DNA of 34,684 bases, taken from a virus. How positions within the stretch are numbered: position 1 is the first letter of the stretch; every line of letters starts with the position of its first letter. The notes beneath the pieces were generated by a model. The model did no database searches, had not been told where the DNA came from, and worked only from the letters and a program-made list of their open reading frames with translations. Below, piece by piece: positions 14,324 through 34,684 of the stretch. The translations under genes and the position numbers were made by a program. Where the stretch lies: IMG/VR virus record IMGVR_UViG_3300048838_000203, positions 1-34,684 of that record; one strand, written 5' to 3'.

Positions 14324-14512
14324 ATGATAATAGCAACAAACGACAGTATGACACAGGGCCGTTTCGTTGGCGCGATGGGCTCTAATTTTGGCGGCGACAA
14401 CCGCAGCGTGTATTTTTTGGAGCTTCCGGACATTGAGGCAGACGCGCTTATACGCAAGGGCATTGCGAGAAAGCTAAACAGCCGTGAATCAATTATATTA
14501 CGGGGGGCGTGA
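14324..14512 (+). CDS. Small early protein of unknown function
   Basis: The 62-residue protein (IATNDSMTQGRFVGAMGSNF, then SVYFLELPDIEADALIRKGI) has GGGGGTGTGAC before its ATG and overlaps the ERF gene start by one base (TGATG). No family is recognised. Confidence 0.6.
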   Translation: MIIATNDSMTQGRFVGAMGSNFGGDNRSVYFLELPDIEADALIRKGIARKLNSRESIILRGA

Positions 14513-15165
14513 TGGACAACAGCGAATCAAAAAAAATCTATCCTGCAATGATTGCAGTATTGAGAGATACGGGAGCAATCACCAAGGATAAAAAAAACCA
14601 GCAGCAGGGATATAGCTTCCGCGGAATAGATGATGTGTATAATACGCTTCACCCGCTGTTCGCAAAACACGGCATTTTCGTGTCAACTGAAGTGTCGAAC
14701 GTGTCCAGGGAGGAGCGGTCAGCGAAGTCAGGGGGCGTTCTCCTGTACACAACCCTTGATCTCAAAGTATCGTTTTACGCAGATGACGGAAGTAGCGTAT
14801 CTACTATTACACGCGGGGAAGCGATGGACTCCGCAGACAAGTCTACAAATAAGGCCATGAGTGCGGCGCTGAAATACGCGATCATGCAAACGTTCCTCGT
14901 ACCAACAGAAGAGCTGCAGGACGCAGACGCAACAACGCCTGATCCGGCGCCGAAACCAGAGCAGCCAAAAAGCCAGCCTCAAAAACAAGACATTCCGGCA
15001 GGCGACATGAAGTTTTTTGTCAATGCTCTCAACACGGCAAAGGACATGGCTGAGCTGATGTCGCTGTGGCAGCAGCACCTGAAGTTTGCCTGGTCTCCTG
15101 CTCAGGAAGAGGAAATCAAGGCGAAATTTGGCATACGCAAAAACGAGATGAAGGGGGCGGCATAA
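14512..15165 (+). CDS. erf: ERF-family single-strand annealing protein
   Basis: The 217-residue product carries the ERF signature: KIYPAMIAVLRDTGAI and GYSFRGIDDVYNTLHPLFAK in the first 60 residues, EVSNVSREERSAKSGGVLLY in the middle, and STNKAMSAALKYAIMQTFLV followed by an acidic EELQDAD. ERF proteins anneal complementary DNA strands in phage recombination and often circularise or concatemerise the genome. A proline/glutamine linker (PKPEQPKSQPQKQ) joins a C-terminal helical domain of about 50 residues. ATG at 14512 has GGGGGG upstream; GTG at 14509 is adjacent. SSB lies downstream in the same early operon. Confidence 0.88.
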   Translation: MDNSESKKIYPAMIAVLRDTGAITKDKKNQQQGYSFRGIDDVYNTLHPLFAKHGIFVSTEVSNVSREERSAKSGGVLLYTTLDLKVSFYADDGSSVSTITRGEAMDSADKSTNKAMSAALKYAIMQTFLVPTEELQDADATTPDPAPKPEQPKSQPQKQDIPAGDMKFFVNALNTAKDMAELMSLWQQHLKFAWSPAQEEEIKAKFGIRKNEMKGAA

Positions 15166-15683: not shown

Positions 15684-15930
15684 AGTTAAAGCGTGTTTTA
15701 ATTGTCAGCACAGGCACCCCTGTGCTGTTAAGTACGCATTAAAAGAGTTCGGGAGGATTGCTGGACACGTAACCGGTGATTTGCGTATCACCTCTAAAAT
15801 CGGTGATGTGATCGCTGATAACTGTGTGATGTACGAGAAAATGGAGCACGATATGGAGCACGATGCAGAAAGCTCTATTGAGATGCGGGAGCGGGAAGCC
15901 ATTGAGGACAGACTCGCGGGGGGTATGTGA
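15664..15930 (+). CDS. Small cysteine-containing early protein
   Basis: The 88-residue product starts [20 protein letters not shown], with a CxxC plus HxxC set that could hold a metal, and ends in a very acidic and methionine-rich helix ([20 protein letters not shown]). AAGGAGGA lies directly upstream of ATG. It overlaps both neighbours. No known family is recognised. Confidence 0.65.
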
Positions 15931-16475
15931 TGCATATCGAAATCAAAAACAGATATACTTGCACTATCATTTTTGCCGGCGAATATGAATCCGTTAAAGA
16001 TGCCGTCACAGGCGCTTATCTCGCAGGCGCTAATCTCACAGACGCTGATCTCACAGACGCTGATCTCATAGGCGCTGATCTCAGATACGCTGATCTCAGA
16101 TACGCTGATCTCAGAGACGCTAATCTCAGATACGCTAATCTCAGAGGCGCTAATCTCAGAGACGCTGATCTCGCAGACGCTGATCTCAGAGGCGCTAATC
16201 TCATAGGCGCTGATCTCGCAGACGCTGATCTCAGAGGCGCTATCGGAGCACCATATACAATATTTATATGTGGGTCACGACATGATGTGTGGACTGATGG
16301 TGATATTATCAAGATAGGATGTGAGGTATATAATGTCGATGAGTGGGTAAATCAATATTGCGAGATCGGAAGAGCTAACGGGTATTCTCCCGATGAGATA
16401 TCAGAGTACAAAGCCTATATCGATCTGTGTTCGCAATTTGTGCCGAAAAAAGCAACCGATAGTGAGGTAGCGTGA
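15930..16475 (+). CDS. Pentapeptide-repeat protein
   Basis: The 181-residue protein has a short N-terminal domain ([20 protein letters not shown]), then fifteen repeats of A(D/N)LxxA-type pentapeptides (residues about 29-103) and a C-terminal domain ([20 protein letters not shown], then [12 protein letters not shown]). Such repeats fold into a right-handed square beta-helix; some members mimic DNA and protect gyrase, others have unknown roles. The C-terminal domain is of a type seen in other phage pentapeptide proteins. The start ATG overlaps the preceding stop. Confidence 0.88.
16014..16238 (+). repeat. Fifteen tandem 15-bp repeats within the pentapeptide gene
   Basis: The unit is GCT(G/A)ATCTC followed by six variable bases such as AGAGAC, AGATAC, ATAGGC or GCAGAC. 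The first nine bases are nearly invariant although synonymous codons would be allowed, so the repeats spread by recent slippage or recombination. Repeat number is likely to vary between relatives. Confidence 0.95.
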
Positions 16476-18247: not shown

Positions 18248-18319
18248 GCCGGTGTAGCTCAGTGGTAGAGCGGCTGTCCTGTAAACAGCTTGTCAGGGGT
18301 TCGACTCCCTTCTCCGGCT
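18248..18319 (+). tRNA. tRNA-Thr (anticodon TGT)
   Basis: A complete cloverleaf: 7-bp acceptor GCCGGTG/CTCCGGC, D arm GCTC-AGTGGTA-GAGC, anticodon stem GCTGT/ACAGC with loop CCTGTAA (anticodon TGT at 18280-18282, reading ACA), T arm AGGGG-TTCGACT-CCCTT. Two oddities are seen: base 33 is C rather than the near-universal U, and acceptor pair 6:67 is U-U. CCA is not encoded. It would supply threonine tRNA for the ACA codon in phage genes. Confidence 0.88.
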
Positions 18320-18324
18320 CATAG

Positions 18325-18989: not shown

Positions 18990-19813
18990 AAAAGTATTAC
19001 TGGCTTAAAATTGGAGAACACTTTTTTGAGGACGATAGAATAATATATCTCGAATCACTCGAAAACGGTGAGAAGTACGTTCTTGTGTGGATCAAACTTT
19101 TGTTAAAATGCCTGAAAGACAAAGATAACGGGGAGTACGGTCTTCTCAGGTTCAGCGATAAAATACCGTATGATGATACCCTTCTTTCGAAAGTACTTAA
19201 ATGTGATATAGATACTCTCCGTGTAGCAATGAAAATATTTGCAGAACTCGACATGATAACGATACTGGAAGACAAAACAATATACATTGAGTGTGTCCAG
19301 AAGCTTATCGGCAAGGAATCCAACAGCGCAGAACGTGTAAGAATACACCGAGAACGGAAAAAACTCATAGAAAACCGTAACAAAGTAACAAAGTGTAACG
19401 TTACATGTAATGCCAATAAAGAAGAAGAGATAGAAGTAGAAGAAGAGATAGAGAAAGAGCTGCGCAAAGACGCCTCTGTAAATGAACTCGTTAATCACTT
19501 CTATGATCTCATAAAAGAGAAAGTGCAACCACCATCATTCAAAAACAAAAAACCGAATCTTAATAGCTGGTATGATGATATTGAAAAGCTCCACAGGATA
19601 GATGGTGCAACCATTGAAGACATCCGATGTGTCATGGAGTATGTAGTGACTGATGAATTCTGGAAGAATAATGTATTATCTGGTGATAAGCTTCGGAAGC
19701 ACTATGACCGGCTATTTCTTCAGTACAAGAAAAACAAGCCTGAACCAGAGGAAACCATGGAAGAGCGCCTCGCCCGTATCGACAGAATGAAAGCGGAGGG
19801 TACCTGGCTATGA
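18986..19813 (+). CDS. Replisome organizer (phage replication initiator)
   Basis: The 275-residue product starts KKYYWLKIGEHFFEDDRIIY and continues EKYVLVWIKLLLKCLKDKDN and GEYGLLRFSDKIPYDD, the signature of the phage replisome organizer N-terminal domain, a winged-helix origin-binding module (residues about 1-120). A glutamate-rich linker (EEEIEVEEEIEKEL) follows, then a C-terminal helical domain (residues about 165-255) that may contact the helicase loader. ATG at 18986 overlaps the previous stop and follows GAGGG. Origins for such proteins often lie inside or beside the gene; I see no clear iteron array here. Confidence 0.85.
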   Translation: MKKYYWLKIGEHFFEDDRIIYLESLENGEKYVLVWIKLLLKCLKDKDNGEYGLLRFSDKIPYDDTLLSKVLKCDIDTLRVAMKIFAELDMITILEDKTIYIECVQKLIGKESNSAERVRIHRERKKLIENRNKVTKCNVTCNANKEEEIEVEEEIEKELRKDASVNELVNHFYDLIKEKVQPPSFKNKKPNLNSWYDDIEKLHRIDGATIEDIRCVMEYVVTDEFWKNNVLSGDKLRKHYDRLFLQYKKNKPEPEETMEERLARIDRMKAEGTWL

Positions 19814-20370
19814 ACGTAAATGAATTTCTCATAAAGATTGAAAACCGATATGGTAAGCCGAAGAATGATTTCTTCCTCGATGATATCCGGGACTACCTGA
19901 ACAGTATCAATGTCGATCTCGAAAGGCTCTATGATGCTATCAGGGACAATCACGAGTATGAATCAATCCCGAACCGATACCGGATAAAAGAAATTTGCGA
20001 GAAGCACTTAACGTCACGCCCCCACGGGGAAGCCCGCCCCACATGGGACGAAATGAAGCGGGAAGTCATGAATATTACCAGGGGGAAAAGCATACCGGAA
20101 ATTGTCAGGCTAATTGTCAGGATTAAAGACAATTTTCACTCGGTAACCCCTCGTCAAATGGTGTTTCTGGACACGTATGATCTTCTCGCGTACCATTATC
20201 ACAGGATGATAGATGATACAGGAGACGAGCAGAGAGCAATACAGTATTGCAGGGCGATAAGGGAACAGATAGATGCAGGGCAGCCTGTGGACTTAGGCCC
20301 TGCTGTGAATATACCAGTAAGTAGTCAAAGGCATGGAAGGACGGTATTGGCGAGTGAGCTTTTCTCATAA
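19810..20370 (+). CDS. Replication-associated protein of unknown type
   Basis: The 186-residue product follows the replisome organizer with a 4-base overlap, where phages usually have a helicase loader. It is helical (VNEFLIKIENRYGKPKNDFF, then PEIVRLIVRIKDNFHSVTPR) but has no Walker A motif, so it is not a DnaC-like ATPase. It could be a non-ATPase loader or a helicase-binding protein. The stop codon TCATAAC coincides with the left box of attC-like site A. Confidence 0.65.
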   Translation: MNVNEFLIKIENRYGKPKNDFFLDDIRDYLNSINVDLERLYDAIRDNHEYESIPNRYRIKEICEKHLTSRPHGEARPTWDEMKREVMNITRGKSIPEIVRLIVRIKDNFHSVTPRQMVFLDTYDLLAYHYHRMIDDTGDEQRAIQYCRAIREQIDAGQPVDLGPAVNIPVSSQRHGRTVLASELFS

Positions 20371-20431
20371 CTGAACAGGGTAAGCGACGTGCGATAGCAT
20401 GTGCGAAGCGAACGCCTGACCGTTGTTATAT
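20365..20431 (+). other. attC-like integron site A
   Basis: The arrangement is 7-base box TCATAAC, 6-base spacer, 9-base arm GGGTAAGCG, a central region with GACGTGCG, arm CGCCTGACC (7 of 9 pair with the left arm, counting a G-U), 3-base spacer and box GTTATAT. The order R''-spacer-L''-core-L'-spacer-R' and the asymmetric 6/3 spacers are those of integron attC sites and are shared exactly with site B. The stop codon of the gene at 19810 lies in the left box. Confidence 0.65.
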
Positions 20432-20496
20432 GCTGTGCCGGGCATGACAGAATAAAGGCGGTGGAGGCCACGGATGGCCGGAACCGATGGAGACAG

Positions 20497-21348
20497 ATGA
20501 AGTTAATAAGAGTATTTCCACGAAAAACAAATGCCACTCCGGACGATGAGAATGTCAGATTTTCAGAGCCGGGATTATTTGATGAGGCGGACGAGGTGCG
20601 TGTTTCTGTAACGTGGACGTGGGATAAACAGAGAGGCGAAGAATTGGCCGAGGCGTGGAGAGGGTTGACAAGCAAGGTTTCAATCGGAGGCCCTGCGTAT
20701 GATGATCCGGGCGGGGAGTTTGAGCCGGGGATGTATGTCAAGCATGGATATGTTATGACGAGCCGAGGGTGTCCGAATAAATGCTGGTTCTGTTCTGTAC
20801 CGAAAAGAGAAGGAGGTATTCGTGAACTTAAAATTAGAGAGGGGTTCAATATTCTTGATAGTAATTTACTTGCTTGCAGTCGGGATCATATTGAGAGGGT
20901 GTTCAATATGCTTGATCGACAACATGAAAAAGCACGATTCACGGGTGGACTTGAAGCGGCGAGGATGAAACCGTGGATTGCCGAGCGGTTGAGGGAGTTG
21001 AGGCCGCACGTTGCATATTTTGCATACGATACACCGGATGATTATGAGCCGCTTGTGGATGCCGTTAAGATGTTGAGGGATGCCGGAGCTTTATATGATC
21101 GTGTTTATTCGTGCTATGTTTTAATTGGATATAAAGGTGACACGATTGAGAAAGCAGAACGCAGATTGCAACAGGTATTAAAGCTGGATGTTATGCCGAT
21201 GGCCATGCTATTTAATAAAGCAGAAGGTAAAGATGATCGGAGTCAATGGATTAAATTCCAGAGGGAATATGCTAACCGGATTATTGTTGGTTCTAAATTA
21301 ACAGCCGCCAGGACGGCGGCTCAACAAGAGGCCCGGCATTGCATATAA
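20497..21348 (+). CDS. Radical SAM enzyme, in an integron-like cassette
   Basis: The 283-residue protein has the radical SAM cluster motif CX3CX2C in MTSRGCPNKCWFCSVPKR near residue 95, preceded by VSIGGPAYDDPGGEFEPGMY and followed by LDSNLLACSRDHIERVF and FTGGLEAARMKPWIA, then YVLIGYKGDTIEKAERRL. These enzymes use a 4Fe-4S cluster and SAM to start radical chemistry; the substrate here is unknown. ATG at 20497 has GGAG 4 bases upstream; the longer frame back to 20401 crosses the attC-like site and is rejected. The gene fills the interval between attC-like sites A and B and its stop lies in ATATAAC of site B, as in integron gene cassettes. Confidence 0.82.
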   Translation: MKLIRVFPRKTNATPDDENVRFSEPGLFDEADEVRVSVTWTWDKQRGEELAEAWRGLTSKVSIGGPAYDDPGGEFEPGMYVKHGYVMTSRGCPNKCWFCSVPKREGGIRELKIREGFNILDSNLLACSRDHIERVFNMLDRQHEKARFTGGLEAARMKPWIAERLRELRPHVAYFAYDTPDDYEPLVDAVKMLRDAGALYDRVYSCYVLIGYKGDTIEKAERRLQQVLKLDVMPMAMLFNKAEGKDDRSQWIKFQREYANRIIVGSKLTAARTAAQQEARHCI

Positions 21349-21425
21349 CGTGGTTGCTTATGTGACGTGCCGTTAGGCATGTGGCGTAGCCCGGAGCAAA
21401 GCGGAGCACATAAGCTCAGTTATAT
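21343..21425 (+). other. attC-like integron site B
   Basis: ATATAAC (21343-21349), 6-base spacer, GCTTATGTG (21356-21364), 42 bases, CACATAAGC (21407-21415), 3-base spacer, GTTATAT (21419-21425). Both arm pairs are perfect complements, 7 and 9 bp. GACGTGC begins 21 bases after the box start, exactly as in site A. The boxes differ from the textbook RYYYAAC/GTTRRRY at one position. The radical SAM stop codon lies in the left box. Confidence 0.75.
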
Positions 21426-21477
21426 ATCGTTGTTGGCATCGTAGTACAAGAGAGTGAAAACAGGAGGTTGTAACGAC

Positions 21478-21852
21478 ATGAGAGAGATTAAGTTCCGTGC
21501 GTGGAATAAGAATGAAGATTGTTTTTTTTATTGGAATACATCATTTGCTTTTGGCGGTATCGGTAAAGTATGGGGAGAGATAGAACAATTCACAGGCATG
21601 TATGATAAGAACGGGAAAGAAATTTATGAGGGTGATATTTGCAAAGTTGATGATGGGGATAATATCTATGAAGTTATTTTTTACATGGGCGGTTTTAGGC
21701 TCGCTGTTTTACCTCGGAAAATAAGAGTTTATGATATAGGAAGTGGTTTTTTAAAAAATATTGAAGTTATCGAGACCACTTATAAGTTTATGGACACAGC
21801 GAAGCAGGACGCTGAGCGCAAATCTGAAGAGTTAGCCAACAATGGTATATAA
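21478..21852 (+). CDS. YopX-family phage protein
   Basis: The 124-residue product opens REIKFRAWNKNEDCFFYWNT and contains QFTGMYDKNGKEIYEGDICK, the two hallmark segments of YopX proteins common in phages of many hosts; their function is not established. ATG at 21478 has AGGAGGT 9 bases upstream. The gene begins after attC-like site B and its stop TAA lies in another ATATAAC box (half site C), so it looks like a second captured cassette with a damaged right end. Confidence 0.85.
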   Translation: MREIKFRAWNKNEDCFFYWNTSFAFGGIGKVWGEIEQFTGMYDKNGKEIYEGDICKVDDGDNIYEVIFYMGGFRLAVLPRKIRVYDIGSGFLKNIEVIETTYKFMDTAKQDAERKSEELANNGI

Positions 21853-21876
21853 CAGGGTTTACACGAAGTACGTCAC
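21847..21876 (+). other. Truncated attC-like half site C
   Basis: ATATAAC (21847-21853) again carries the stop codon of the preceding gene. A 6-base gap, TACACGAAG and TACGTCAC follow, the last resembling the GACGTGC core of sites A and B at a similar offset. No matching right arm or GTTATAT box is found downstream, so only the left half seems to remain. Confidence 0.4.
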
Positions 21877-21904: not shown

Positions 21905-22153
21905 ATGATTACAGAACTACCACCCGTAGACAGCAAAGTATCAAAGATGGCGCTTGATCTCCTGAACAAAGGTAAGCGCAAATTCGAGAGGGAGAGCTCT
22001 ACCTGCTACCGCTGCAAACAGCAAGTAATTACCCGTGACATGGTGGTAGTGGAGCGTATTTCCAGAGGATCCCGGCGCCGGTATTCTGTCAGGTGCTGCA
22101 GGGAGTGCGCGTGTGTGCTTCACAACTCCGGAATATGGGGATCCATAGCATGA
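21905..22153 (+). CDS. Zinc-finger miniprotein
   Basis: The 82-residue protein has a CxxC pair in TCYRCKQQVITRD and a second CCRECAC set near residue 65, with a basic ISRGSRRRYSVR strand between, typical of small zinc ribbons that bind nucleic acid. ATG at 21905 has AAGGAG about 10 bases upstream. It ends at TGA overlapping the next ATG. Confidence 0.68.
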   Translation: MITELPPVDSKVSKMALDLLNKGKRKFERESSTCYRCKQQVITRDMVVVERISRGSRRRYSVRCCRECACVLHNSGIWGSIA

Positions 22154-22590
22154 AAGCCACGGTGGTTAAGAAATCAGGAGGACTCTTCCCCGTTGCACCT
22201 TCAGACATCGATAAGCTCAATAAATACGCGAACGGGGAAATAATCGAAGTCAGTCACAGGAAAGCCAGGTTCTACCCGCTTTTGCAGAAATATTGGGCGC
22301 TCTGTAATATGATCGCACAGAATGCGAAGGCACACGAAGACTTTGAGTGCCTGAATACCAGGGAGCTGGTAAGTGAGTATATTAAGCTGAAAGTCGGACA
22401 CATTGACAGCCGGATAGTGATACGTGACCATGTTCACATAATCACAAAGTCAATCAGCTATTCAGCGATGGATCAGGATGAGTTCAGCGAGTTTTTCGAT
22501 AAGGCGGTAGATGTAATGTCAGCACTATCCGGAATACCGGTTCATGATTTACTGCTGAACTGGGCTGAATATGAGTGCGGCGTACAATAA
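22150..22590 (+). CDS. DUF1367-like phage protein
   Basis: The 146-residue product contains LFPVAPSDIDKLNKYANGEI followed by VSHRKARFYPLLQKYWALCN, the pattern of DUF1367 proteins (a handful of basic residues, then FxxLLxxYW). These occur next to RusA and Nin-type recombination genes in many phages; their role is unclear. Here RusA follows two genes downstream, in agreement. ATG overlaps the previous stop (ATGA). The upstream start at 22093 would lie inside the preceding gene and is rejected. Confidence 0.75.
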   Translation: MKATVVKKSGGLFPVAPSDIDKLNKYANGEIIEVSHRKARFYPLLQKYWALCNMIAQNAKAHEDFECLNTRELVSEYIKLKVGHIDSRIVIRDHVHIITKSISYSAMDQDEFSEFFDKAVDVMSALSGIPVHDLLLNWAEYECGVQ

Positions 22591-22718: not shown

Positions 22719-23046
22719 TATCGACAATATACTTCTTGCTTCGATCAACAGGAAGTACCGGGTTTCTCAGGCAGGCGGGAAGTGGATACTCACACGGCAA
22801 TACCGTGACATGAAAAAACTGCTCACCATGGTGTCAAAGAAAGGGAGACTGGACCCGCCGTACAGGATCGATATTCAAATGCAGACGTTTATAGATATCG
22901 ATAACCCGGTGAAGTGCATACAGGACTCACTACAGGCGGCGGGAATTATTGACGATGACATGAATGTGCTTCAGCTCAATGTAACGAAACATCCGCTCCC
23001 GAAAGGAAAACCAGGAAGGCTCGTTGTGTATGTGGGGACGGTATGA
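22702..23046 (+). CDS. rusA: RusA-family Holliday junction resolvase
   Basis: The 114-residue protein ends with the RusA signature: DIDNPVKCIQDSLQAAGIID followed by DDMNVLQLNVTKHPLPKG and a final strand RLVVYVG. The conserved aspartates (D-x-D-N and the IIDDD set) bind magnesium for cleavage of four-way junctions made by recombination or replication. GTG at 22702 has GGGAG 7 bases upstream and is the best start; the frame from 22669 lacks one. It overlaps the next gene by 4 bases. Confidence 0.85.
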   Translation: MQKVIDIDNILLASINRKYRVSQAGGKWILTRQYRDMKKLLTMVSKKGRLDPPYRIDIQMQTFIDIDNPVKCIQDSLQAAGIIDDDMNVLQLNVTKHPLPKGKPGRLVVYVGTV

Positions 23047-23324
23047 AGGTCCAGCTCTGCGAAATGTGCCACTATAGGTTAGCAGAACACTTTCACCACC
23101 TGTTCCCGCAGACGAAACGGAATAAGGCATTGTATCCTGAATACATTCACCACCGGGACAATGGGCAATTTCTCTGTTCAATTTGTCACTTAAATAAGTC
23201 AGTAAAGCATTGGAGTGAATTGGAATTTTGCAAGCACTTTGGAATAAAGCCGCGATCAAAAGAACTACTCTTTAAGGTCTCGCAGGGTAGGGTAGAAAAA
23301 TTCTGGCAAGAGGTGATACTATGA
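23043..23324 (+). CDS. HNH-like zinc protein
   Basis: The 93-residue product has VQLCEMCHYRLAEHFHHLFP at the start and DNGQFLCSICHLNKSVKHW in the middle: two CxxC pairs framing an HH-x-F-P, like the His-Cys core of HNH nucleases. The typical catalytic asparagine step is not obvious, so nuclease activity is uncertain. It directly follows rusA with a 4-base overlap and is likely part of the recombination group. Confidence 0.65.
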   Translation: MKVQLCEMCHYRLAEHFHHLFPQTKRNKALYPEYIHHRDNGQFLCSICHLNKSVKHWSELEFCKHFGIKPRSKELLFKVSQGRVEKFWQEVIL

Positions 23325-24210: not shown

Positions 24211-24495
24211 GTGAATACAATCTACAACCACAATGTCGAAAAAATTATTTCCGATCTCTACACTATATACAATCACTTCGGTAAAGAGAACCAGATCAAT
24301 AAGCTCGCTGAAGAATGTGTGGAGTATCTGGAAAGCTATATCACGAACAGAAAAGAGAGTTATGATCCTGAAGAGGTTGCAGATGTGCTTGTGGTGGCGT
24401 TACAGTTGGCTTTTAATGATCCTGAGGTAGCGCAGGCGGTGAAAGACAAGATTGCGCGGACCATTACAAGGATAGGGGAGGGGTACTATGAATAA
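24211..24495 (+). CDS. MazG-like NTP pyrophosphohydrolase
   Basis: The 94-residue helical protein has the metal-binding motif EExxE...ExxD of MazG-type enzymes: KLAEECVEYLES followed 20 residues later by DPEEVADVLVVALQLAF. These enzymes hydrolyse nucleoside triphosphates to monophosphates, either cleaning odd nucleotides or lowering alarmone signals during infection. GTG at 24211 has GAGGA 6 bases upstream and is preferred over GTG at 24199. It overlaps the next gene by 8 bases. Confidence 0.75.
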   Translation: MNTIYNHNVEKIISDLYTIYNHFGKENQINKLAEECVEYLESYITNRKESYDPEEVADVLVVALQLAFNDPEVAQAVKDKIARTITRIGEGYYE

Positions 24496-24640
24496 GCAGG
24501 TACCGGTGGAGTGTTATTCCCGTGTAGTGGGGTTCTATCGTCCTTTGAGTCAGTGGAATCCCGGGAAGAAAGAGGAGTACAGGGAAAGAGTTGAGTATGA
24601 TGTAATAGAATCAATGAGACATAATATTGTTGACGCTTAA
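24488..24640 (+). CDS. Stand-alone glycyl-radical C-terminal domain of anaerobic ribonucleotide reductase (NrdD-like)
   Basis: The 50-residue product reads VECYSRVVGFYRPLSQWNPG then KKEEYRERVEY. This matches the extreme C-terminus of class III ribonucleotide reductases (R-V-x-G-Y/F followed by W-N-x-G-K-x-x-E), which bears the glycyl radical; here Gly15 would be the radical site. No catalytic barrel is present. A replacement radical domain, like YfiD for pyruvate formate-lyase, would be one idea. The -35 of promoter P5 overlaps its last codons. Confidence 0.75.
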   Translation: MNKQVPVECYSRVVGFYRPLSQWNPGKKEEYRERVEYDVIESMRHNIVDA

Positions 24641-24658
24641 ACATGCGTGTAGTACATT
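24630..24658 (+). promoter_or_regulatory. Late promoter P5, head and packaging genes
   Basis: TTGACG (24630-24635), a 17-base spacer and TACATT (24653-24658). It is preceded by G and has the same -35, spacer and -10 as P6 at 30152, a shared variant that marks both units leading into head genes. It overlaps the end of the NrdD-like ORF. Confidence 0.8.
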
Positions 24659-24687
24659 TGAATAGAGGGAAAATGAAGGAAATTAAG

Positions 24688-24711
24688 ATTACATGATATG
24701 GAATATGTAAT
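24688..24711 (+). promoter_or_regulatory. Inverted repeat in the P5 leader
   Basis: ATTACAT (24688-24694) and ATGTAAT (24705-24711) are perfect complements around a 10-base spacer, about 25-50 bases after the expected transcription start of P5. It could be an operator roadblock or an mRNA hairpin. The rest of the 139-base gap (24641-24779) shows only the AGGAGGAAG ribosome binding site for the next gene. Confidence 0.5.
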
Positions 24712-24779
24712 ATATTTTACGTACAGCGTGGAAGAAAAATCTACGCGCGAATAAAATTAAATCCTGAATAGGAGGAAGT

Positions 24780-25559
24780 ATGAGCGTAATCTATGAACCA
24801 CGCGGGAAGGCCCGCGAATATTCACCGCTTGCATGTAATATTTACATGGGGTGTAATCATGGCTGTAAGTATTGTTATGCACCGAATATCAGATTTCAAA
24901 AAAGGGAAGAATATCTTACGGTAAAACCGAGAAGGAACATTGTGCAGGAGTTCGAGAGGGATTGCAAGAAAAACACCGGTACTGATAAGCAGGTTCTGTT
25001 CTGTTTTATGTCAGACCCTTACAACTCCCTTGAGTCAGAGCTCAGGCTAACAAGAGAATGTCTCAAACTTGCTTTGAAGTATGATATACCTGTAGCAATA
25101 CTTACGAAGAGTAAAACAGTGCTTAATGATATTGACGTAATAAAGCAATTTGGTAGCAAAATACAGGTAGGAATGACTCTTACCATGAATAGCACTGATA
25201 AAAGTATAGAGTGGGAGCCAGAAGCAGCAACGCCAGATGAAAGGATTGAAACTCTCTCAGCTCTTAAAAAAGATGGAGTGAGGACATGGGCTTCTTTTGA
25301 GCCGGTAATATTTCCTGAAGAATCTCTTGCTATTATGGAGAGGTCAATCCCGCATGTTGATATTTACAAAGTTGGGAAGCTTAATAATTTCCAGGGGCTT
25401 GATAAAAATGTTGATTGGGCTGAATTTCTAAGAAAATCCACTGAAATTCTACGGAAAAATGGAAAGCCATTTTACGTTAAAAAGGATTTGAGGGAGGCTG
25501 CTCAATCTATCAAGCTGTATGGAAATGAAGTGTATATGGACGAATTTAACGTAGCGTAA
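24780..25559 (+). CDS. SplB-like radical SAM enzyme
   Basis: The 259-residue protein has the radical SAM motif CX3CX2C in NIYMGCNHGCKYCYAPNIRF (around residues 21-40), then LFCFMSDPYNSLESELRLTR, IPVAILTKSKTVLNDI and VGMTLTMNSTD. This pattern belongs to the COG1533 group that includes spore photoproduct lyase, though members here often have other or unknown roles. It is the first gene behind P5 and has a strong AGGAGGAAG site. Repair of DNA lesions or a modification step before packaging are both possible; the substrate is not visible. Confidence 0.83.
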   Translation: MSVIYEPRGKAREYSPLACNIYMGCNHGCKYCYAPNIRFQKREEYLTVKPRRNIVQEFERDCKKNTGTDKQVLFCFMSDPYNSLESELRLTRECLKLALKYDIPVAILTKSKTVLNDIDVIKQFGSKIQVGMTLTMNSTDKSIEWEPEAATPDERIETLSALKKDGVRTWASFEPVIFPEESLAIMERSIPHVDIYKVGKLNNFQGLDKNVDWAEFLRKSTEILRKNGKPFYVKKDLREAAQSIKLYGNEVYMDEFNVA

Positions 25560-25576
25560 AACGGAAAGCAATCGGT

Positions 25577-25954
25577 ATGCCAGCACCTAAAGGTGGAAAT
25601 AAGGGAAGTTTCAAGAAGGGTAACGGGGGCGGCGGTAGAAAGCCGCTTCCTCCGGAAGTCCGTGAAATATCCAACGCAACGAAACCAGCCATCATTGATG
25701 CATACTGGAAGATCAGCAACCTTCCAGTGTCGGAGATTCAGGCATTTAAACCGGCAACGCTCCTTGAGGCCGGCATCCTTCGCTGCCTTGCCGCATTTGC
25801 AAAAGATGGGAAGACAGATCAGATATCAAGGATATGGGCAGAATGCCATGGGAAGCCGAAAGAGAGCATTGACTTAAATCAAACCGGAGATATGAGCGTT
25901 AAGGTAACGATTGAGAGCGCAGGTACAGGACATAAGGATAAGCCTACCGGATAA
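25577..25954 (+). CDS. terS: Small terminase subunit-like protein
   Basis: The 125-residue protein has a glycine- and lysine-rich N-terminus (GGNKGSFKKGNGGGGRKPLP), then helices (TKPAIIDAYWKISNLPVSEI and ATLLEAGILRCLAAFAKDGK) and an acidic end. It precedes and overlaps the large terminase by 44 bases, the normal place of the DNA-recognition subunit. The basic glycine-rich leader recalls HNH- or DUF5681-type DNA-binding leaders. No helix-turn-helix is certain. Confidence 0.7.
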   Translation: MPAPKGGNKGSFKKGNGGGGRKPLPPEVREISNATKPAIIDAYWKISNLPVSEIQAFKPATLLEAGILRCLAAFAKDGKTDQISRIWAECHGKPKESIDLNQTGDMSVKVTIESAGTGHKDKPTG

Positions 25955-27131
25955 GGTTATTCCGGCGGTCAATACCGACAAAAGATATGTGGTACTCTAC
26001 GGCGGGAGAGGTTCCTCAAAGTCGTGGAGCGTTGCTGATATATTCCTTCTCAGAGGTTTAGAGTTTCCCCGGAGGATGCTTTGTACCAGGGAGATACAGT
26101 CAACTATCAAAGATTCCGTTCACAAGCTTCTTGCTGATACAATAGAGCGCAGAGGGCTTGGATGGTTTTATAACGTCCAGAGGGATGCTATAATCGGGAA
26201 GAACGGCTCTCTGTTTATCTTTAAGGGGCTTCGCCATAACGTAACAGAGGTAAAGTCCACAGAGGGGATTGACCTCTGCTGGGTAGAAGAGGCACAGAGC
26301 GTATCACAGGACTCCTGGGACATCCTGAAGCCGACAATCCGGAAGTCTGACAGTCAGATATATATTACCTATAATCCAGAAAACGAGGAAGACCCCACTG
26401 ATATAGAGTTCAGGCAGAAAGAGCGGGAAGATGCACTCGTTATAAATATGAATTACTGGGACAATCCTTTCTTCCCGGAAGTTCTACGGTCAGAGATGGA
26501 GTATGACAGGCGGACTGATTATGACAAGTACCTGTGGGTGTGGGAGGGGCAGTATCGGAAAGTTTCCGAGGCACAGGTGTTCAAAGGGAAATATCGTGTA
26601 GATGAATTTGAGGCCCCGAAAGGTGCGGAGTTCTATTACGGTGCTGACTGGGGGTTTTCGCAGGACCCTACTGCATTGATACGGTGTTATGTGGAGAACA
26701 CTAAACTATATATAGATTATGAAGCCTATGGAGTAGGGGTTGATATTGACGAGACACCACAAATGTTTGATTCGGTGCCAGGTGCAAGGGATAACATTAT
26801 CACCGCTGATTCCGCAAGGCCAGAGACTATCAGCTATATGCAGAAAAACGGATACTCCAGGATGAGGTCAGCTAAAAAGGGGAAGAACAGCGTTACTGAT
26901 GGAGTAGCCCTGATTAGGTCTTTTGAGGAGATAGTCATTCACCCACGGTGTCGACACACAATAGAAGAGTTTAAGTTATACTCACACAAAAAGGACAGGA
27001 TCACCGGAGAGATATTGCCGGTGTTGATAGATAAGCATAATCACTGCATAGATGCGCTACGGTATGCGTTAGAAAGCGTGAATAAAATACTCAAGGCGTC
27101 AAATGTATCTTTAGGAGCGTTAGGACTATGA
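25911..27131 (+). CDS. terL: Large terminase subunit
   Basis: The 406-residue protein has Walker A GGRGSSKS at residues 31-38, Walker B in TEGIDLCWVEEAQ near residue 125, a coupling motif YITYNPENEEDPTD near 160, and the nuclease entry FYYGADWGFSQDPTALIRCY near residue 242 with later acidic residues ITADSARPETI and DKHNHCIDALRYA. It translocates DNA into the capsid and cuts it (Terminase_3 / PBSX type). TTG at 25911 has AAGG upstream; no ATG or GTG lies in frame before Walker A. Headful cutting would fit the circularly permuted map, but this is inference. Confidence 0.93.
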   Translation: MRAQVQDIRISLPDKVIPAVNTDKRYVVLYGGRGSSKSWSVADIFLLRGLEFPRRMLCTREIQSTIKDSVHKLLADTIERRGLGWFYNVQRDAIIGKNGSLFIFKGLRHNVTEVKSTEGIDLCWVEEAQSVSQDSWDILKPTIRKSDSQIYITYNPENEEDPTDIEFRQKEREDALVINMNYWDNPFFPEVLRSEMEYDRRTDYDKYLWVWEGQYRKVSEAQVFKGKYRVDEFEAPKGAEFYYGADWGFSQDPTALIRCYVENTKLYIDYEAYGVGVDIDETPQMFDSVPGARDNIITADSARPETISYMQKNGYSRMRSAKKGKNSVTDGVALIRSFEEIVIHPRCRHTIEEFKLYSHKKDRITGEILPVLIDKHNHCIDALRYALESVNKILKASNVSLGALGL

Positions 27132-28513
27132 TTAAAGCAATACTCACAAACGGCGAACTCACAGAAACCGAGATAACGGACCTCATTAACTCGCACGACA
27201 CCACAGGATACGAGGAGAATGAGCACTATTTCAAGGGGAATAACCCTACTATTCTTGCAACTAACGACAAGGACAACAGTGAGATCACCCCGAACAATAA
27301 GATACCAGTTCCATACGGCAGAAAAATAGCACTGACAACGAAAAATTATCTCTTCTCAAGGCCTGTCAACTACTCCTCAGACGATAAAGACTATATGGAG
27401 CAGGTTCTTGATGTGTTCTATATCAACAAGAACATGCAGAAGACCGCTGACATAGGACTTGACTTAATCGTCCACGGTGTAGCGTATAAGCTCTTTTATA
27501 CAGATGTGGTAGCAGGGGCCCTCACTCCTCTCTACGCGGTGATTTACCAGAATGAAATGATTACCGTGTATGACTACTCGGTTGAGCCGCAGCTGATAGC
27601 TGCTATACGGTACTACGACCAGACTGATACCGCCGATGTTACGACAACGAAAGTTGAAGTGTACTACTCTGATAAGATCGTCAAATACGATATGAGCGGA
27701 TCAGCACTGAGCAGCCGGAAAGATGTAAAACACGATTTCGGGCGGGTCCCTGTTATCGAATACGGTGATGATTACCAGATAGGCGTGTTTGATTCCGTCA
27801 AGAAAATTATAGATGCTCTTGATGTAGTGGTGACAACGGACGTGAACGAGGTTCAGCGGTTCGAGATGCTGTACATGATACTCATAGGAGACAAGCTACC
27901 GAGTAATCCCGATGAAGTGAAAGCAATGGTACAGCGGCGTATATTCGAGCTTTCCCCAGGGGCACAGATGAGCTATCTGGAAAAGCACATTGACGCTGAT
28001 TTCAATATGCAGTTGTGGGATCGGCTGGAAAAGCTCATACACACCATGAGCGGTGTCCCGGACTTCGACAGTAAGGACTTCGCCGCTGAATCAGGAGTAG
28101 CGTTACTGTATAAACTCCTGGGGTTTGAAAATATTGCTTCTCAGTATGAATCACAGTTCATTCAGGGTGAGTATGAATCAATAGATTGTATCAATGCAAT
28201 TCTATTCAGGCAGAAAAGCGTGTTTGATAAATTCAAGTTCTGGAAGGCAAATAAGGCGAAGCAGGTAGAGATAACTCTACAGAGAAACCTCCCTGAAGAC
28301 GTTTCACAGAGGCTTACCGAGGCGAAGCTGATGAAAGACCTTGGTGTGAGTGATGAGACAGTATTTGATTACATACCAACCGTTAAAGACGTAAAAGAGG
28401 AGCTGAAGCGGTCAGAGGAGCAGTCACAGAGGAATTTCGACCGCTTCCAGGCAAACATGACCGCAAAAACCGAAGAGGAAACAGAGGAAGTTGACGGAGA
28501 AGATGTTGCATGA
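27128..28513 (+). CDS. Portal protein
   Basis: The 461-residue product follows terL with a 4-base overlap and shows portal features: an N-terminal domain with NNKIPVPYGRKIALTTKNYL and YLFSRPVNYSSDDKDY, a mixed wing region, VVVTTDVNEVQRFEMLYMIL near the stem helix, and LLYKLLGFENIASQYESQF in the crown-side helix, then an acidic tail (KTEEETEEVDGEDV). It fits the SPP1 gp6-like portal family, dodecamers through which DNA enters. Confidence 0.9.
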   Translation: MIKAILTNGELTETEITDLINSHDTTGYEENEHYFKGNNPTILATNDKDNSEITPNNKIPVPYGRKIALTTKNYLFSRPVNYSSDDKDYMEQVLDVFYINKNMQKTADIGLDLIVHGVAYKLFYTDVVAGALTPLYAVIYQNEMITVYDYSVEPQLIAAIRYYDQTDTADVTTTKVEVYYSDKIVKYDMSGSALSSRKDVKHDFGRVPVIEYGDDYQIGVFDSVKKIIDALDVVVTTDVNEVQRFEMLYMILIGDKLPSNPDEVKAMVQRRIFELSPGAQMSYLEKHIDADFNMQLWDRLEKLIHTMSGVPDFDSKDFAAESGVALLYKLLGFENIASQYESQFIQGEYESIDCINAILFRQKSVFDKFKFWKANKAKQVEITLQRNLPEDVSQRLTEAKLMKDLGVSDETVFDYIPTVKDVKEELKRSEEQSQRNFDRFQANMTAKTEEETEEVDGEDVA

Positions 28514-29505
28514 GCTTTGTAGCTGATGAAAGAGGGGTATTTAATTCTGCCCTGCAGGCAATAGCACAGCGTAAAAGGAACCTGGTGAAGGTTTACGCAG
28601 AGAGCCGGGAACGGATACTCCTGAAGATAGCAAAGTACCGCATGGATGCCGAAGCTGGCCTGAAGACTCCTGAATTTGAAGAGGCACGGCTGGCTTCCCT
28701 CTTACAGCAGATAGACGCAGAAGTAGCACAGACACAGGATGTGATCGGTACCATTATTCAAGACGGTTTCTCCGAAATATCACAAAAGACGTATTACGCA
28801 GAAGCGTATTCCGTGGAGAAGGCTATCAATGTGGATATCCCTACCGGGGCCAATTACTCCCTGAACTTCCCTGCTCTTGATACAGGGGCGGTAGATGCTG
28901 CTTTCTCAGAGCGTATTGCGGGCCACACCTTCCTTGACCGCATGGCTCATGATAAGGTTGTAATGCAGTACAGGCTCAGGCAGGCAGTAGCAGAAAACAT
29001 AATTGAGGGTCTGCCAGTACAGGAGCTTAAAAAGCGCTTAATGCTGATAGACGATGTGTACGCACAGAACGAGGCGAAAGCCCTCATGACAGCCCGTACA
29101 GAGCTTCTGAGGGCCTACAGCTACGGACAGGAGAGAATGGCGTTTGAAGCCGAAGAGTCCGGGGTAGAGTTCATATATTACTGGTCTTCAGCTCTCGACG
29201 GCAAAACGAGGCCCACGCACCGGGAAGCAGACAGGCAGAAAGCGAAGATCATTAACGGTACACCCGCTTTCTCGGTGGGGGGCGTTTTGTTCAGCTCTCC
29301 ACGTATCGTTCACCCTTCGAACACGTCACTGAAGACTGCAAAGGAAGTTGTGAATTGCAGATGCCGGAGAATCAACGCTCCCGATGGTATAACACCGACA
29401 AGAAGGGTTGCGGTAATGCCGGACGGAGCATGGAAGAAAGTAGACTGGAACGTAAGTGCAAAAGATTGGTACGATCACCATTACGGGGGAAATTTGTTTG
29501 AGTAA
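28510..29505 (+). CDS. MuF-like head morphogenesis protein
   Basis: The 331-residue protein follows portal with a 4-base overlap. Its N-terminal half is helical and charged; the C-terminal half has the MuF (SPP1 gp7) pattern: TARTELLRAYSYGQERMAF, SALDGKTRPTHREADRQKAK near residue 230 and KEVVNCRCRRIN near 290. Such minor head proteins bind portal and are packaged in small numbers, sometimes entering the host with DNA. No toxin-like extension is present after the MuF domain. Confidence 0.85.
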   Translation: MSFVADERGVFNSALQAIAQRKRNLVKVYAESRERILLKIAKYRMDAEAGLKTPEFEEARLASLLQQIDAEVAQTQDVIGTIIQDGFSEISQKTYYAEAYSVEKAINVDIPTGANYSLNFPALDTGAVDAAFSERIAGHTFLDRMAHDKVVMQYRLRQAVAENIIEGLPVQELKKRLMLIDDVYAQNEAKALMTARTELLRAYSYGQERMAFEAEESGVEFIYYWSSALDGKTRPTHREADRQKAKIINGTPAFSVGGVLFSSPRIVHPSNTSLKTAKEVVNCRCRRINAPDGITPTRRVAVMPDGAWKKVDWNVSAKDWYDHHYGGNLFE

Positions 29506-29526
29506 ATAAATATTACGGAGGAAGAT

Positions 29527-29727
29527 ATGGCAAAAAAACCTACATCCGCGAGACTTTCGGACGAAAGTATAAAAATGATTGAGGAAATGTCGGAAGCATT
29601 AAGCATATCGCAGTCGGAGCTTCTTAATCTTGGAGTTAAGGTCGCTCATGATTTATACATTAGTAAAAACGTGAAAACAAAATACGAAATGATTGTAGCT
29701 GTATTTAATAATTGTAGGAAAGTGTAA
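29527..29727 (+). CDS. Ribbon-helix-helix protein 3, in the head operon
   Basis: The 66-residue protein starts AKKPTSARLSDESIKMIEEM, a strand and helix 1 of RHH type, and SQSELLNLGVKVAHDLYI as helix 2, with a short extension. It has CGGAGGAAG upstream of ATG. Its location between MuF and scaffold genes is unusual for a regulator. It may control promoter P6 or be cargo. Confidence 0.75.
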   Translation: MAKKPTSARLSDESIKMIEEMSEALSISQSELLNLGVKVAHDLYISKNVKTKYEMIVAVFNNCRKV

Positions 29728-29777
29728 TGAGACAGGTATCAACAGGAATACGCTTATAAAAAGAAGGTAGGTAGACT

Positions 29778-30110
29778 ATGCGAGACACAACTATTACAAT
29801 TCGTCTTTCAAGTGCGACAATAAAAAATATTGACGAGGCTGCTTCATTAACAGGGGTAACACGTTCACACCTTGCAGCTGCAATATTAACTGTATCTGTT
29901 CACAATATGAAGGCACGTGCAAAGGAAAACGATTTAATCAGCTTTCTAAAAAAATACCAGCAGGAAAATGGCGGTAATATCAATATCGATCAAGCTCTTG
30001 CGGTATTCAAGAAACAACAGCGCAGTGACGGTGTATTGCTCTACGATGGGTACACTAAGGCAGTTATAGAGCACGGGTTTAACATACCGGAATGGATGGA
30101 GGATAAATAA
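29778..30110 (+). CDS. Ribbon-helix-helix protein 4 with C-terminal extension
   Basis: The 110-residue product begins RDTTITIRLSSATIKNIDEA (strand and helix 1) and GVTRSHLAAAILTVSVHNM (helix 2), an RHH domain, then a helical and loop extension of about 60 residues (ISFLKKYQQENGGNINIDQA, ending HGFNIPEWMEDK) that may sense a ligand or partner. It lies directly upstream of promoter P6, so it could repress or tune scaffold and capsid expression. Genes 3 and 4 appear to be related but not identical copies. Confidence 0.75.
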   Translation: MRDTTITIRLSSATIKNIDEAASLTGVTRSHLAAAILTVSVHNMKARAKENDLISFLKKYQQENGGNINIDQALAVFKKQQRSDGVLLYDGYTKAVIEHGFNIPEWMEDK

Positions 30111-31883: not shown

Positions 31884-32225
31884 ATGGCAATAATAACAAG
31901 AGCAAAAGCAAAGACGTTCCTGCAGATAACTGATACATCGAAGGATGATCTTATAGACGCTCTTATTCCGCAGGTAGAGGCTGATTATCTACTGATCCGG
32001 AATAGGGCTTTTGATGAAGATTCCAACGATGAAATTGAGTATCCGGATAACGCTGAACTTGTCGCTGCCCAGATGATCGGGTTTCTGATATCTGATATCG
32101 CAAGGTCAGGCGGTGCTTTCAAGAGTGAGTCTATTGGTAAGTACAGTTATACTGTAGCTGATATGGTCGCTGGATACCCGACAACAATCACCAGCAGAAT
32201 TGACAAATACGTTGGTAGCAAGTGA
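31884..32225 (+). CDS. Head-tail connector protein (gp6-like)
   Basis: The 113-residue protein starts AIITRAKAKTFLQITDTSKD and continues LIDALIPQVEADYLLIRN and NAELVAAQMIGFLISDIARS, an all-helical pattern typical of gp6/gp15-type connectors that form a ring below portal. There is no good ribosome binding site before ATG at 31884, which follows an AT-rich stretch. Its end overlaps the GTG start of the first sugar cassette gene, so the cassette is translationally joined to the connector. Confidence 0.8.
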   Translation: MAIITRAKAKTFLQITDTSKDDLIDALIPQVEADYLLIRNRAFDEDSNDEIEYPDNAELVAAQMIGFLISDIARSGGAFKSESIGKYSYTVADMVAGYPTTITSRIDKYVGSK

Positions 32226-32866
32226 AAAGAAAGGGAGCGCAAATACGTGGAATGCTGGAAGGACGGGCGGCGTGGCTTCTCGGAGGAGGGACTTCACTTT
32301 CTGGTATTGATTTCACGAAGCTTGACAACGAGTTTACCATAGCGGTCAATCACACAATAGAGCACTACCCGAACGCAGACGCCCTACTGTTCGGTGATAA
32401 AATATTCCTGCATAAAACCAATTTCGATATTAAGAGTTACAAGGGGCTCATTTTCTGCTCAGAGAAATGCACGAAGTCAAAGCCTATAGACGAGATGCTT
32501 GATAACGATAATCTCTTCATCTTCGATGACAGGCGGGATGAGCCGACACTCAATCCGAGAGTAGGACTGTTTCACCCTGGGTCTTCCGGGATTCTGGCGC
32601 TTAATCTCGCTATACAGATGAAGGCGAAGAAAATATATCTGCTCGGGTACGATTACCACTACAGTAACGGCAAAATACATTACTATCCTGACATGGAGCA
32701 TCACCTGAAATACCCTGCTGAAAGACTTCCACGTAAGGCCGCGAAGTTTGTGTATTTCGAGAAGTGGAAGGATAAAATTATCAATCTGAGTCCTACCTCT
32801 GTAATCCAGACTTTCCAAAAACGCGACTGGAGGGAGTATGATATATTACGTAATACCAGCGCGTAA
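32222..32866 (+). CDS. Rossmann-like glycosyltransferase (GT29 / DUF115-like)
   Basis: The 214-residue product has AAWLLGGGTSLSGIDF near the N-terminus, then FTIAVNHTIEHYPNADALLF, and PGSSGILALNLAIQMKAKKI followed by YLLGYDYHY near residue 125. The order, a GGG-x-S loop, an IAVN strand and a GSSGILALxLA motif, resembles sialyltransferase motifs L and S and the related DUF115/MptE fold. It is the first gene of the cassette and a distant partner of the gene at 195. GTG at 32222 overlaps the connector stop; ATG at 32252 is an alternative. The substrate is not visible. Confidence 0.65.
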   Translation: MKRKGAQIRGMLEGRAAWLLGGGTSLSGIDFTKLDNEFTIAVNHTIEHYPNADALLFGDKIFLHKTNFDIKSYKGLIFCSEKCTKSKPIDEMLDNDNLFIFDDRRDEPTLNPRVGLFHPGSSGILALNLAIQMKAKKIYLLGYDYHYSNGKIHYYPDMEHHLKYPAERLPRKAAKFVYFEKWKDKIINLSPTSVIQTFQKRDWREYDILRNTSA

Positions 32867-33509
32867 GGGAAGCAAGGGGCTTCCGGGGAAAAACAGGACA
32901 CTGTTTTTAAAGACTTTTGATATATTCCCGCATGATGTATATAGCAATGTAATAGTTACCACTGACGATGAAGAGATAAAGCGTCAAATTGCCTGCTACC
33001 GGAAAACTCTATCTGCTTTCCGGTCAACCGGGGTAAGCTGTGTTATACACGACAGAAAGCCTGAACACGCAACCGATGAAGCCAGCATGAGGGCGGTACT
33101 CCTGGACATCAGAGAAGAGCACAAAATGAAAGCAGATGATATTATTGTGCTCCTATACCTCACATATCCTGAAAGAACGTATCAGCTCGTAAAAGACACT
33201 TTGGAATATTTCATAGCGATCAACGGGAATAGCCTTTTGTGTGCTATCCCCGCGAAAGACAGCCCGTGTCAGATGGTATATATTGACGGTGCCCCTGTAG
33301 TGGAGAATAACCTGTACCGCAGACAGGATTACCCTGTGGTGTACGTGAGAAGTCACTGCGTAGCGATTATGAGAGCCGGAGAGCTCGATCACCTCTCAGA
33401 GAACCTGTACAACGATGATACTATATATTTCCCGATTGATCCTATTGTTGATGTCGATACCGAGGAGGACTTGAAAGCGTATGAAAACAGCTCTTACAAC
33501 AATGCTTGA
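32838..33509 (+). CDS. neuA: CMP-N-acetylneuraminate synthetase-like (acylneuraminate cytidylyltransferase)
   Basis: The 223-residue protein opens with the nucleotide-binding loop IPARKGSKGLPGKN, the defining motif of CMP-sialate and CMP-KDO synthetases, then VIVTTDDEEI, HATDEASMRAVLLDI, LLYLTYPERT (a variant of the usual QPTSPLR) and VDVDTEEDLKAYE, the C-terminal DIDTxED. It would activate a nonulosonic acid with CTP to make the donor for the sialyltransferase-like proteins. AGGGAG lies just before ATG. It overlaps both neighbours. Confidence 0.88.
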   Translation: MIYYVIPARKGSKGLPGKNRTLFLKTFDIFPHDVYSNVIVTTDDEEIKRQIACYRKTLSAFRSTGVSCVIHDRKPEHATDEASMRAVLLDIREEHKMKADDIIVLLYLTYPERTYQLVKDTLEYFIAINGNSLLCAIPAKDSPCQMVYIDGAPVVENNLYRRQDYPVVYVRSHCVAIMRAGELDHLSENLYNDDTIYFPIDPIVDVDTEEDLKAYENSSYNNA

Positions 33510-34212
33510 TGATAATTTTGTCATCGGATATGTAGCGTTTATCAAGTCCTTTCTTCACTTCAATCATGATTTCTCTGATGATTTCGTGATTATAGATGTG
33601 GGCCTTAGTGAGGAAAGCAAAGAGAAGATTGAAAGCTATTACCAGAATGTAGTGTACAAACAGCCGAACCGGGACAGGTACCGCAGTGTCGATATGTCGA
33701 AGACAGCGGATAAGCTGAAGAACACGTATTACACCCTTGATGTGTTCAGTTACACGGAGTATGACAGGATCGTGTTTATAGACATGGATACAATTGTGCT
33801 CGCTCCTTTGGATGAACTGTTTAATTGTCCAGAACCTTTCGCTGCGGTGAAGGGATACAATGCAAAGCTTGACGAATTGCGGGGTGATATCAATTCTGGT
33901 GTGTTCGTTGTGAATAAACCGCTTATTGGTGAAGAAACATATTCAGATATGATCAGATACGCTTCACGCGGCCATTCGATGCCGGATCAGAAAACAATAA
34001 ACGGCGTTCTTCGTAATAAAATAGCATACTTTAACAAATCGTACAATGTAGAAAAGCGCATGTTGCACACTCGGAAGTATAAGAGAGTGCTGGAAAATAT
34101 TAAAATACTCCACTTCGTAGCCTCCAAACCGTGGGAGGATGTAAAACCGAACGCAGTAGAGGAGAGTTACGGAGAATTTGAAAAGATATGGTGGGAATGG
34201 TATGAAAGATAA
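33481..34212 (+). CDS. GT8-family glycosyltransferase
   Basis: The 243-residue protein has GT8 features: KTALTTMLDDNFVIGYVAFI at the start, YTLDVFSYTEYDRIVFIDMD with the D-x-D metal motif near residue 100 followed by TIVLAPLDEL, FAAVKGYNAKLDELRGDINS with GVFVVNKPL, and a late KILHFVASKPWED typical of glycogenin-like enzymes. It transfers a sugar from a nucleotide sugar with retention. It overlaps neuA by 29 bases and the methyltransferase by 11, so it is an integral part of the cassette. Confidence 0.87.
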   Translation: MKTALTTMLDDNFVIGYVAFIKSFLHFNHDFSDDFVIIDVGLSEESKEKIESYYQNVVYKQPNRDRYRSVDMSKTADKLKNTYYTLDVFSYTEYDRIVFIDMDTIVLAPLDELFNCPEPFAAVKGYNAKLDELRGDINSGVFVVNKPLIGEETYSDMIRYASRGHSMPDQKTINGVLRNKIAYFNKSYNVEKRMLHTRKYKRVLENIKILHFVASKPWEDVKPNAVEESYGEFEKIWWEWYER

Positions 34213-34684
34213 GATTTCAATCAGGAATGCTCCGACAGCGATACCGGGGCTTCAGGACATGATAATGTACATCCAGAAGAAAGGCTGCGTACACTTCTCA
34301 AAGTTCGTAATGGCAGAGATAGGGTCCTATGTCGGAGACTCCACACAAGTGTTCGCCGTTGCGTGTAAAGAGATACACTGCGTTGATCCATGGCAGAACG
34401 GGTATGACGAGAACGACTTTTTAAGTTATAAGTACGACATGAAGATCATAGAAGCGCAATTCGATGAGGTTTGTGAGCGCTTTCACAACGTTATTAAGCA
34501 CAAGATGACTTCCGTGGAAGGTGCTGAAGAGTTCGAGGATGAAAGCCTTGATTTTATTTATATCGACGGTCTCCACACGTATGAGGGAGTGATTGATGAT
34601 ATCAAGGCATGGTTGCGGAAGGTGAAGCCTGATGGATGGGTCGGCGGCCATGACTACGGACATAAGCTATGCCCGGGCGTAAAG
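34202..34684 (+). CDS. SAM-dependent methyltransferase, N-terminal part (continues at the left end)
   Basis: The frame opens at ATG 34202 and is uninterrupted to the window end (161 codons), then continues in frame to 214 across the circular join. Motif I is AEIGSYVGDSTQVFA near residue 43, followed by the acidic strand end HCVDPWQNG; DFIYIDGLHTYEGVI lies at the join. This is a class I Rossmann methyltransferase, Methyltransf_24-like, of about 189 residues. In a sugar cassette it may O-methylate a glycan. GTGGGA precedes ATG and the start overlaps the GT8 stop. Confidence 0.85.
   Translation, partial: MKDKISIRNAPTAIPGLQDMIMYIQKKGCVHFSKFVMAEIGSYVGDSTQVFAVACKEIHCVDPWQNGYDENDFLSYKYDMKIIEAQFDEVCERFHNVIKHKMTSVEGAEEFEDESLDFIYIDGLHTYEGVIDDIKAWLRKVKPDGWVGGHDYGHKLCPGVK
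34558..34684. repeat. Right copy of 127-bp terminal direct repeat
   Basis: Exact copy of bases 1-127. See the left copy: it marks closure of a circular assembly, and only one copy belongs to the genome. Confidence 0.95.

Follow-up and report, generated by a model that had tools for sequence, protein, structure and literature searches.

The closest described counterparts of the locus analysed here are the phage CALINs, 17 of which were identified in 10,705 phage genomes by Qi et al. 2023 (PMC9892861), where IntI1 was also found to recombine five of the six phage attC sites tested. These CALINs, with that of Tetrasphaera phage TJE1 as an example, combine attC-like sites and co-oriented genes with the lack of an integrase (PMC9892861), and as the same combination is found in our locus, it would belong by its anatomy to the same kind; methyltransferase cassettes likewise occur both in the phage CALINs and in the arrays related to ours. 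However, our covariance model (see below) has no match in TJE1 or MW202573, the spacers of TJE1 attC1 are 3 and 3 whereas those of our sites are 6 and 3, and, unlike in the phage CALINs of PMC9892861, one cassette and one hairpin are each found in different arrays and some of the related sites hold the start of the next gene. The earlier phage CALINs were rare and described genome by genome, whereas here exchange appears to have been caught across arrays. What would be new, going by sequence comparison, is the site family itself, which is distinct, together with direct evidence that cassettes are exchanged box to box, and hairpins with gene starts inside them.

A second comparison is offered by the chromosomal integrons of Treponema (PMC3607928), in which attC sites are either short (63–68 bp) or long (115–132 bp) and AAC and GTT are invariant. 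Our site family also has short and long members with invariant AAC and GTT, a likeness that is by description only, but the Treponema integrons are chromosomal with IntI present or recently lost, whereas our sites are in a phage without IntI.

The window, by which we mean the whole stretch of DNA analysed, is a virus contig from IMG/VR, 34,684 bases long, with identical direct repeats of 127 bases at its ends (1–127 and 34558–34684), and because of these repeats the record is probably complete. It encodes Terminase_3, SPP1-type portal, Gp13-like capsid, replisome organiser, ERF and NinB/Orf-like proteins. A nucleotide search against phage records with the window gave no match, and searches for phages without the cassettes by terminase, by the 186-aa protein preceding the first site and by the NinB-like protein found distant relatives at most; a further locus (L049) is 99.98% identical to window 24243–29962 and ends short of the cassettes. 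A tRNA-Thr (TGT) gene is found at 18248–18320, upstream of the genes for replication. Outside the cassettes we also note another radical-SAM protein (24780–25559), assigned to a different family (phrog_13321), and a set of glycan genes (195–1701 and 32222–34212; sialyltransferase-like (GT29, weak), NeuB, cytidylyltransferase-like and GT8) that takes up a large share of a 35-kb phage.

Anatomy of the sites and cassettes

Two complete sites are found on the plus strand. Site A (20365–20431) consists of the left box TCATAAC (20365–20371), a 6-nt spacer, the 9-nt left arm GGGTAAGCG (20378–20386), GACGTGC at offset 21, the right arm CGCCTGACC (20413–20421), a 3-nt spacer and the right box GTTATAT (20425–20431), and has a near-identical copy in a related contig (L156 3093–3159). 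Site B (21343–21425) has the left box ATATAAC (21343–21349), the spacer GTGGTT, the left arm GCTTATGTG (21356–21364), GACGTGC again at offset 21, the right arm CACATAAGC (21407–21415), the spacer TCA and the right box GTTATAT (21419–21425). This common plan of boxes, spacers, arms and core offset is as laid out in the original prediction, which also correctly placed TAA stops inside the left boxes (20368–20370 for A, 21346–21348 for B and 21850–21852 for the third box, C). It had further claimed that the bases following the two right boxes are alike, but this holds only loosely, and these bases recur in other arrays (GTTNNNNGANGT...).

The sites lie within a run of plus-strand genes. Directly 5' of site A is a gene for a 186-aa protein of unassigned function (19810–20370) which stops inside the left box of A. 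The first cassette body (20425–21349) extends from the right box of A to the left box of B and contains a leader and the gene for a 283-aa radical-SAM protein (20497–21348; phrog_9298), with ends that are complementary at 9/10 bases. The second (21419–21853) extends from the right box of B to box C and contains a leader and the gene for a 124-aa YopX-family protein (21478–21852; PF09643 and phrog_98). Box C itself (21847–21853, plus strand) is the ATATAAC box with a stop that had been predicted 3' of the YopX gene; no right half was found for it, 9/10 bases are complementary between it and the start of the YopX unit that it closes, and it most likely represents a cassette end lacking its hairpin. 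(A grouping of C with other half sites was dropped, as several of the related ones are long sites with the right half within the next gene.) Box C is followed by a phage gene (21905–22153, plus strand), and with the NinB/Orf-like gene (22093–22590) the phage backbone continues.

Taken alone, the two sites differ in quality. Site B is near-perfect, with a score of 16 in a box-plus-arm scan in which the highest score among 60 shuffles of the window, on both strands, was 15 (0/60 reached 16), and it folds with a z of -3.0 and a stable plus strand. Site A is imperfect, with boxes matching at 5/7 positions and arms with six Watson-Crick pairs and one G-T pair of nine, and folds no better than shuffles. 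In both, the spacers are unequal (6 and 3). Extra unpaired bases are on the left arm, as they are in TJE1 attC1. The box GTTATAT is one position off GTTRRRY (the attC box consensus is RYYYAAC / GTTRRRY), while other sites of the family fit the consensus exactly (GTTAGGC and GTTAAGT, and the pair GCCTAAC/GTTAGGC in the phage record G003). We consider that A and B are probably attC sites of integron type and the radical-SAM and YopX genes captured cassettes, and integron-type cassettes with no integrase would make the locus a CALIN.

The site family in related arrays

The same site family was found in three further IMG/VR phage records, in a phage-like fragment and in a contig. A radical-SAM protein search led to G001, a 36.2 kb phage (87% protein identity), and to L156, a contig of 5.5 kb assigned by binning to a Bacteroidota MAG, and searches by pattern brought up L145 (in G004, a 22 kb phage), the fragment L153 (2.5 kb) and L220 (in G003, an 89 kb phage); it should be noted that one of the site patterns used for scanning does not fit site A. 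Further site-pattern matches were put down to chance, except for L220 and the records already known. No structural protein was found by BLASTP to be common to the window and G001, G003 or G004; G001 is related to G004. The window, G001, L156, G003 and G004 all have one site per gene boundary and co-oriented genes, and stop codons lie in or near the box at the array gene boundaries, with a few units containing several small ORFs. Several long related sites enclose the start codon of the next gene. In G003 the array has a GC content of 36.6% compared with 26.8% for the genome, which points to import, and the strong AGGAGG ribosome-binding sites of the arrays suggest that L156 may have been mis-binned in the Bacteroidota MAG. 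An HNH-type protein of the window (23043–23324) has relatives near the arrays of G001 (44%) and G004 (49%).

We built a covariance model from 13 aligned sites from other arrays, with A, B and close copies left out, and this had exactly two matches in the 34.7 kb window, which were A (47.2 bits, E 2.5e-9) and B (33.3 bits, E 7e-6). Changes on both sides of a pair were seen in 10/16 pairs, with 31 cells showing such changes compared with 10 in shuffles, and 89.9% of cells were paired compared with 43% or less in slid-partner controls. The sites vary in length but keep the stem structure, and the AAC and GTT of the boxes are invariant in all 13, and in all 17 of a larger alignment. The related model based on the 17 sites detected, in the G003 array, one more site that was not in its training set and had no matches in 1.06 Mb of other fetched loci or in 370 kb. 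An Rfam scan of the window gave a tRNA as the sole match and none for the site family. The gene-sense strand was the more stable in 23/26 phage sites by folding energy, but known attC controls showed almost no strand difference, so this was not used for polarity.

We also compared the 10 bases at the start with those at the end of each of 23 gene units. The two ends of a unit were complementary at 8.8/10 bases on average (about 9.1 when the box C unit is shifted by one base), compared with 7.0/10 between the left and right box of a hairpin and 6.4/10 for permuted pairs, and 0/20,000 permutations were as high as the observed own-end pairing. Since units pair with their own ends more than the boxes of a hairpin pair with each other, this argues for units closing into circles and not for terminators. 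Ordinary intergenic RNA hairpins, such as terminators or processing sites resembling attC by chance, would account for sites between co-oriented genes and for the stable plus-strand fold of B, but not for box pairing that follows the gene's own ends, for the start codons in the long related sites, or for hairpins and genes being found in new combinations, and we regard this as a very improbable explanation. If A and B are attC sites, as we prefer to think, each unit could circularise, with its two ends pairing with each other to give the box stem around one hairpin. Such circles would be inserted and excised at the GTT/AAC boxes while the site DNA is single-stranded and, because all of the genes are co-oriented, transcription of the array would be provided by the phage itself.

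Apparent exchange of cassettes at the boxes

The radical-SAM cassette is found in the window (20369–21349) and in L156 with 978/981 bases identical (99.7%, three mismatches). The match is bounded by the AAC of the left box of A and the AAC of the left box of B, and outside it the flanks are unrelated, with other genes before and another continuation after. G001 is 81% identical to the window over 20424–21352. Site B recurs in L153 (2121–2202, 92.6%) from box to box with other genes on both sides, and G001 and G003 have the two ends of one cassette in common (77 and 64 bases) around a gene that differs. The comparisons of the window with L156 and L153 are what would be expected of attC sites and CALINs, that is, cassettes exchanged at boxes, and cassettes appear to be common to different phages. 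This exchange looks recent because one cassette is 99.7% identical in two arrays and one hairpin lies between different genes. At the contig end of G001 (L130) there is a perfect repeat of 99 bases (16091–16189 and 14451–14549, 100%) in which the end of a radical-SAM cassette is joined to the start of a methyltransferase cassette; it may be an excised circle or loop, a tandem copy or an assembly artefact.

Homologous recombination over the hairpins as short shared sequence, by the ERF and NinB/Orf-like proteins encoded in the window and with no site-specific enzyme, might also produce such mosaics. Site A does look hybrid, with a left arm like that of another hairpin type (GGGTAAGCG, as at L156 1809) and a right arm that agrees with L156 3093. 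However, the exchanges end at 7-base boxes where the hairpins wholly differ (B compared with the half site of L156), and complementarity of a unit's own ends is not predicted by this explanation, which we therefore judge to be unlikely.

In standard integrons exchange takes place at the right box and the hairpin stays with the upstream gene. In contrast, the comparison of the window with L156, in which the hairpin travels with the downstream gene, points to exchange at left boxes, although in G003, L156, G001 and G004 there are proteins whose C-terminal modules are alike but whose N-termini differ, with the join at the right box (VL-x-D/E), and these spliced reading frames point to exchange there. 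Hairpin B has been exchanged at both boxes. Perhaps the cassette pool circulates mainly among diverse phages with a site family of its own, in which either box exchanges and start-bearing hairpins splice N-termini onto C-terminal modules, but we hold this only tentatively and think it doubtful.

The small-ORF loci (L223 on the minus strand of G003, reverse-complement about 51800–52060; L156 216–748; L130 14068–14453; L145 4254–4502) have different N-termini and C-terminal modules that begin at the right box (S|LLAEVRAL, T|VLAEVRAL, S|LLADVRA, A|VLGDAAEL, A|VLCDTAEL and A|VLCDIDRN). For several of the small ORFs a long attC-like hairpin contains both the ATG and the ribosome-binding site, and one G003 ORF has two right-box joins. 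These joins suggest protein shuffling at the boxes.

Integrase and source of the cassettes

The phage record was predicted to lack an integrase gene, and this proved to be so: the window has no match to TIGR02249, and no tyrosine recombinase was found in Pfam scans of nearly all plus-strand proteins of at least 175 aa (a 182-aa repeat protein at 15927 was left out). PF00589 has no match in the G001, G003, G004 or L153 records, and none of the phage records searched has intI beside its array as a complete integron does. Exchange would then depend on a tyrosine recombinase supplied in trans, the most likely one being an integron integrase of the cell. If so, phages could draw on and spread cassettes, the cargo of which includes methyltransferases, YopX, radical-SAM and small modular proteins, and the question of which cells and enzymes supply phage cassettes is opened to testing.

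Searches of cellular genomes produced one lead. A strict site-pattern scan of genome_contigs gave no matches, and the covariance model gave none in 297 genomes of the phylum of L175, in eight radical-SAM genomes or in 11 genomes of one order, but matched in 1/285 genomes of the Omnitrophota (the phylum of L181). This genome, G479, has one strong site on a 13.5 kb contig and no IntI above the cut-off. IntI (TIGR02249) was above the cut-off in 18/384 Omnitrophota genomes, and the site family was absent from 20 fetched IntI loci of this phylum (L260–L279). The one Omnitrophota genome that shares the site family has an array in which gene direction is the reverse of the hairpin orientation found in phages. 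A recombinase in G002 adjoins an IS91-like transposase and was not accepted as an integron integrase.

The original prediction that the genes may have been delivered by a host integron stands in part, in that they have the character of movable integron-type cassettes, but the searches found no integron that carries this site family, and another phage is just as plausible as the immediate donor. Against the attC reading stand the unequal spacers, a GTTATAT box that is off consensus, the lack of an integrase and of any attI seen in these records, the failure to find a host integron with the family, and a hairpin that stays with the downstream gene between the window and L156, the reverse of standard integrons. 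The sites might instead serve a different, undescribed recombinase outside the IntI family, as the unequal spacers, the own-end repeats of up to 10 bases, the exchange at either box and the failure to link any IntI to the family would allow. We think this improbable, given that several related-array boxes are exactly RYYYAAC/GTTRRRY (GCCTAAC/GTTAGGC in G003) and the overall plan is that of attC, and we continue to favour attC sites of integron type.

Two further observations concern the Omnitrophota lead. The 20 IntI loci (L260–L279) have few attC-like sites by a scan that allows no bulges. The Omnitrophota-binned contig of G479 carries a dense cassette array (L233, G479:C5:2500-13522, and L234) and may itself be phage because of a holin-like ORF, and one long site of this array overlaps the 3' end of its gene.
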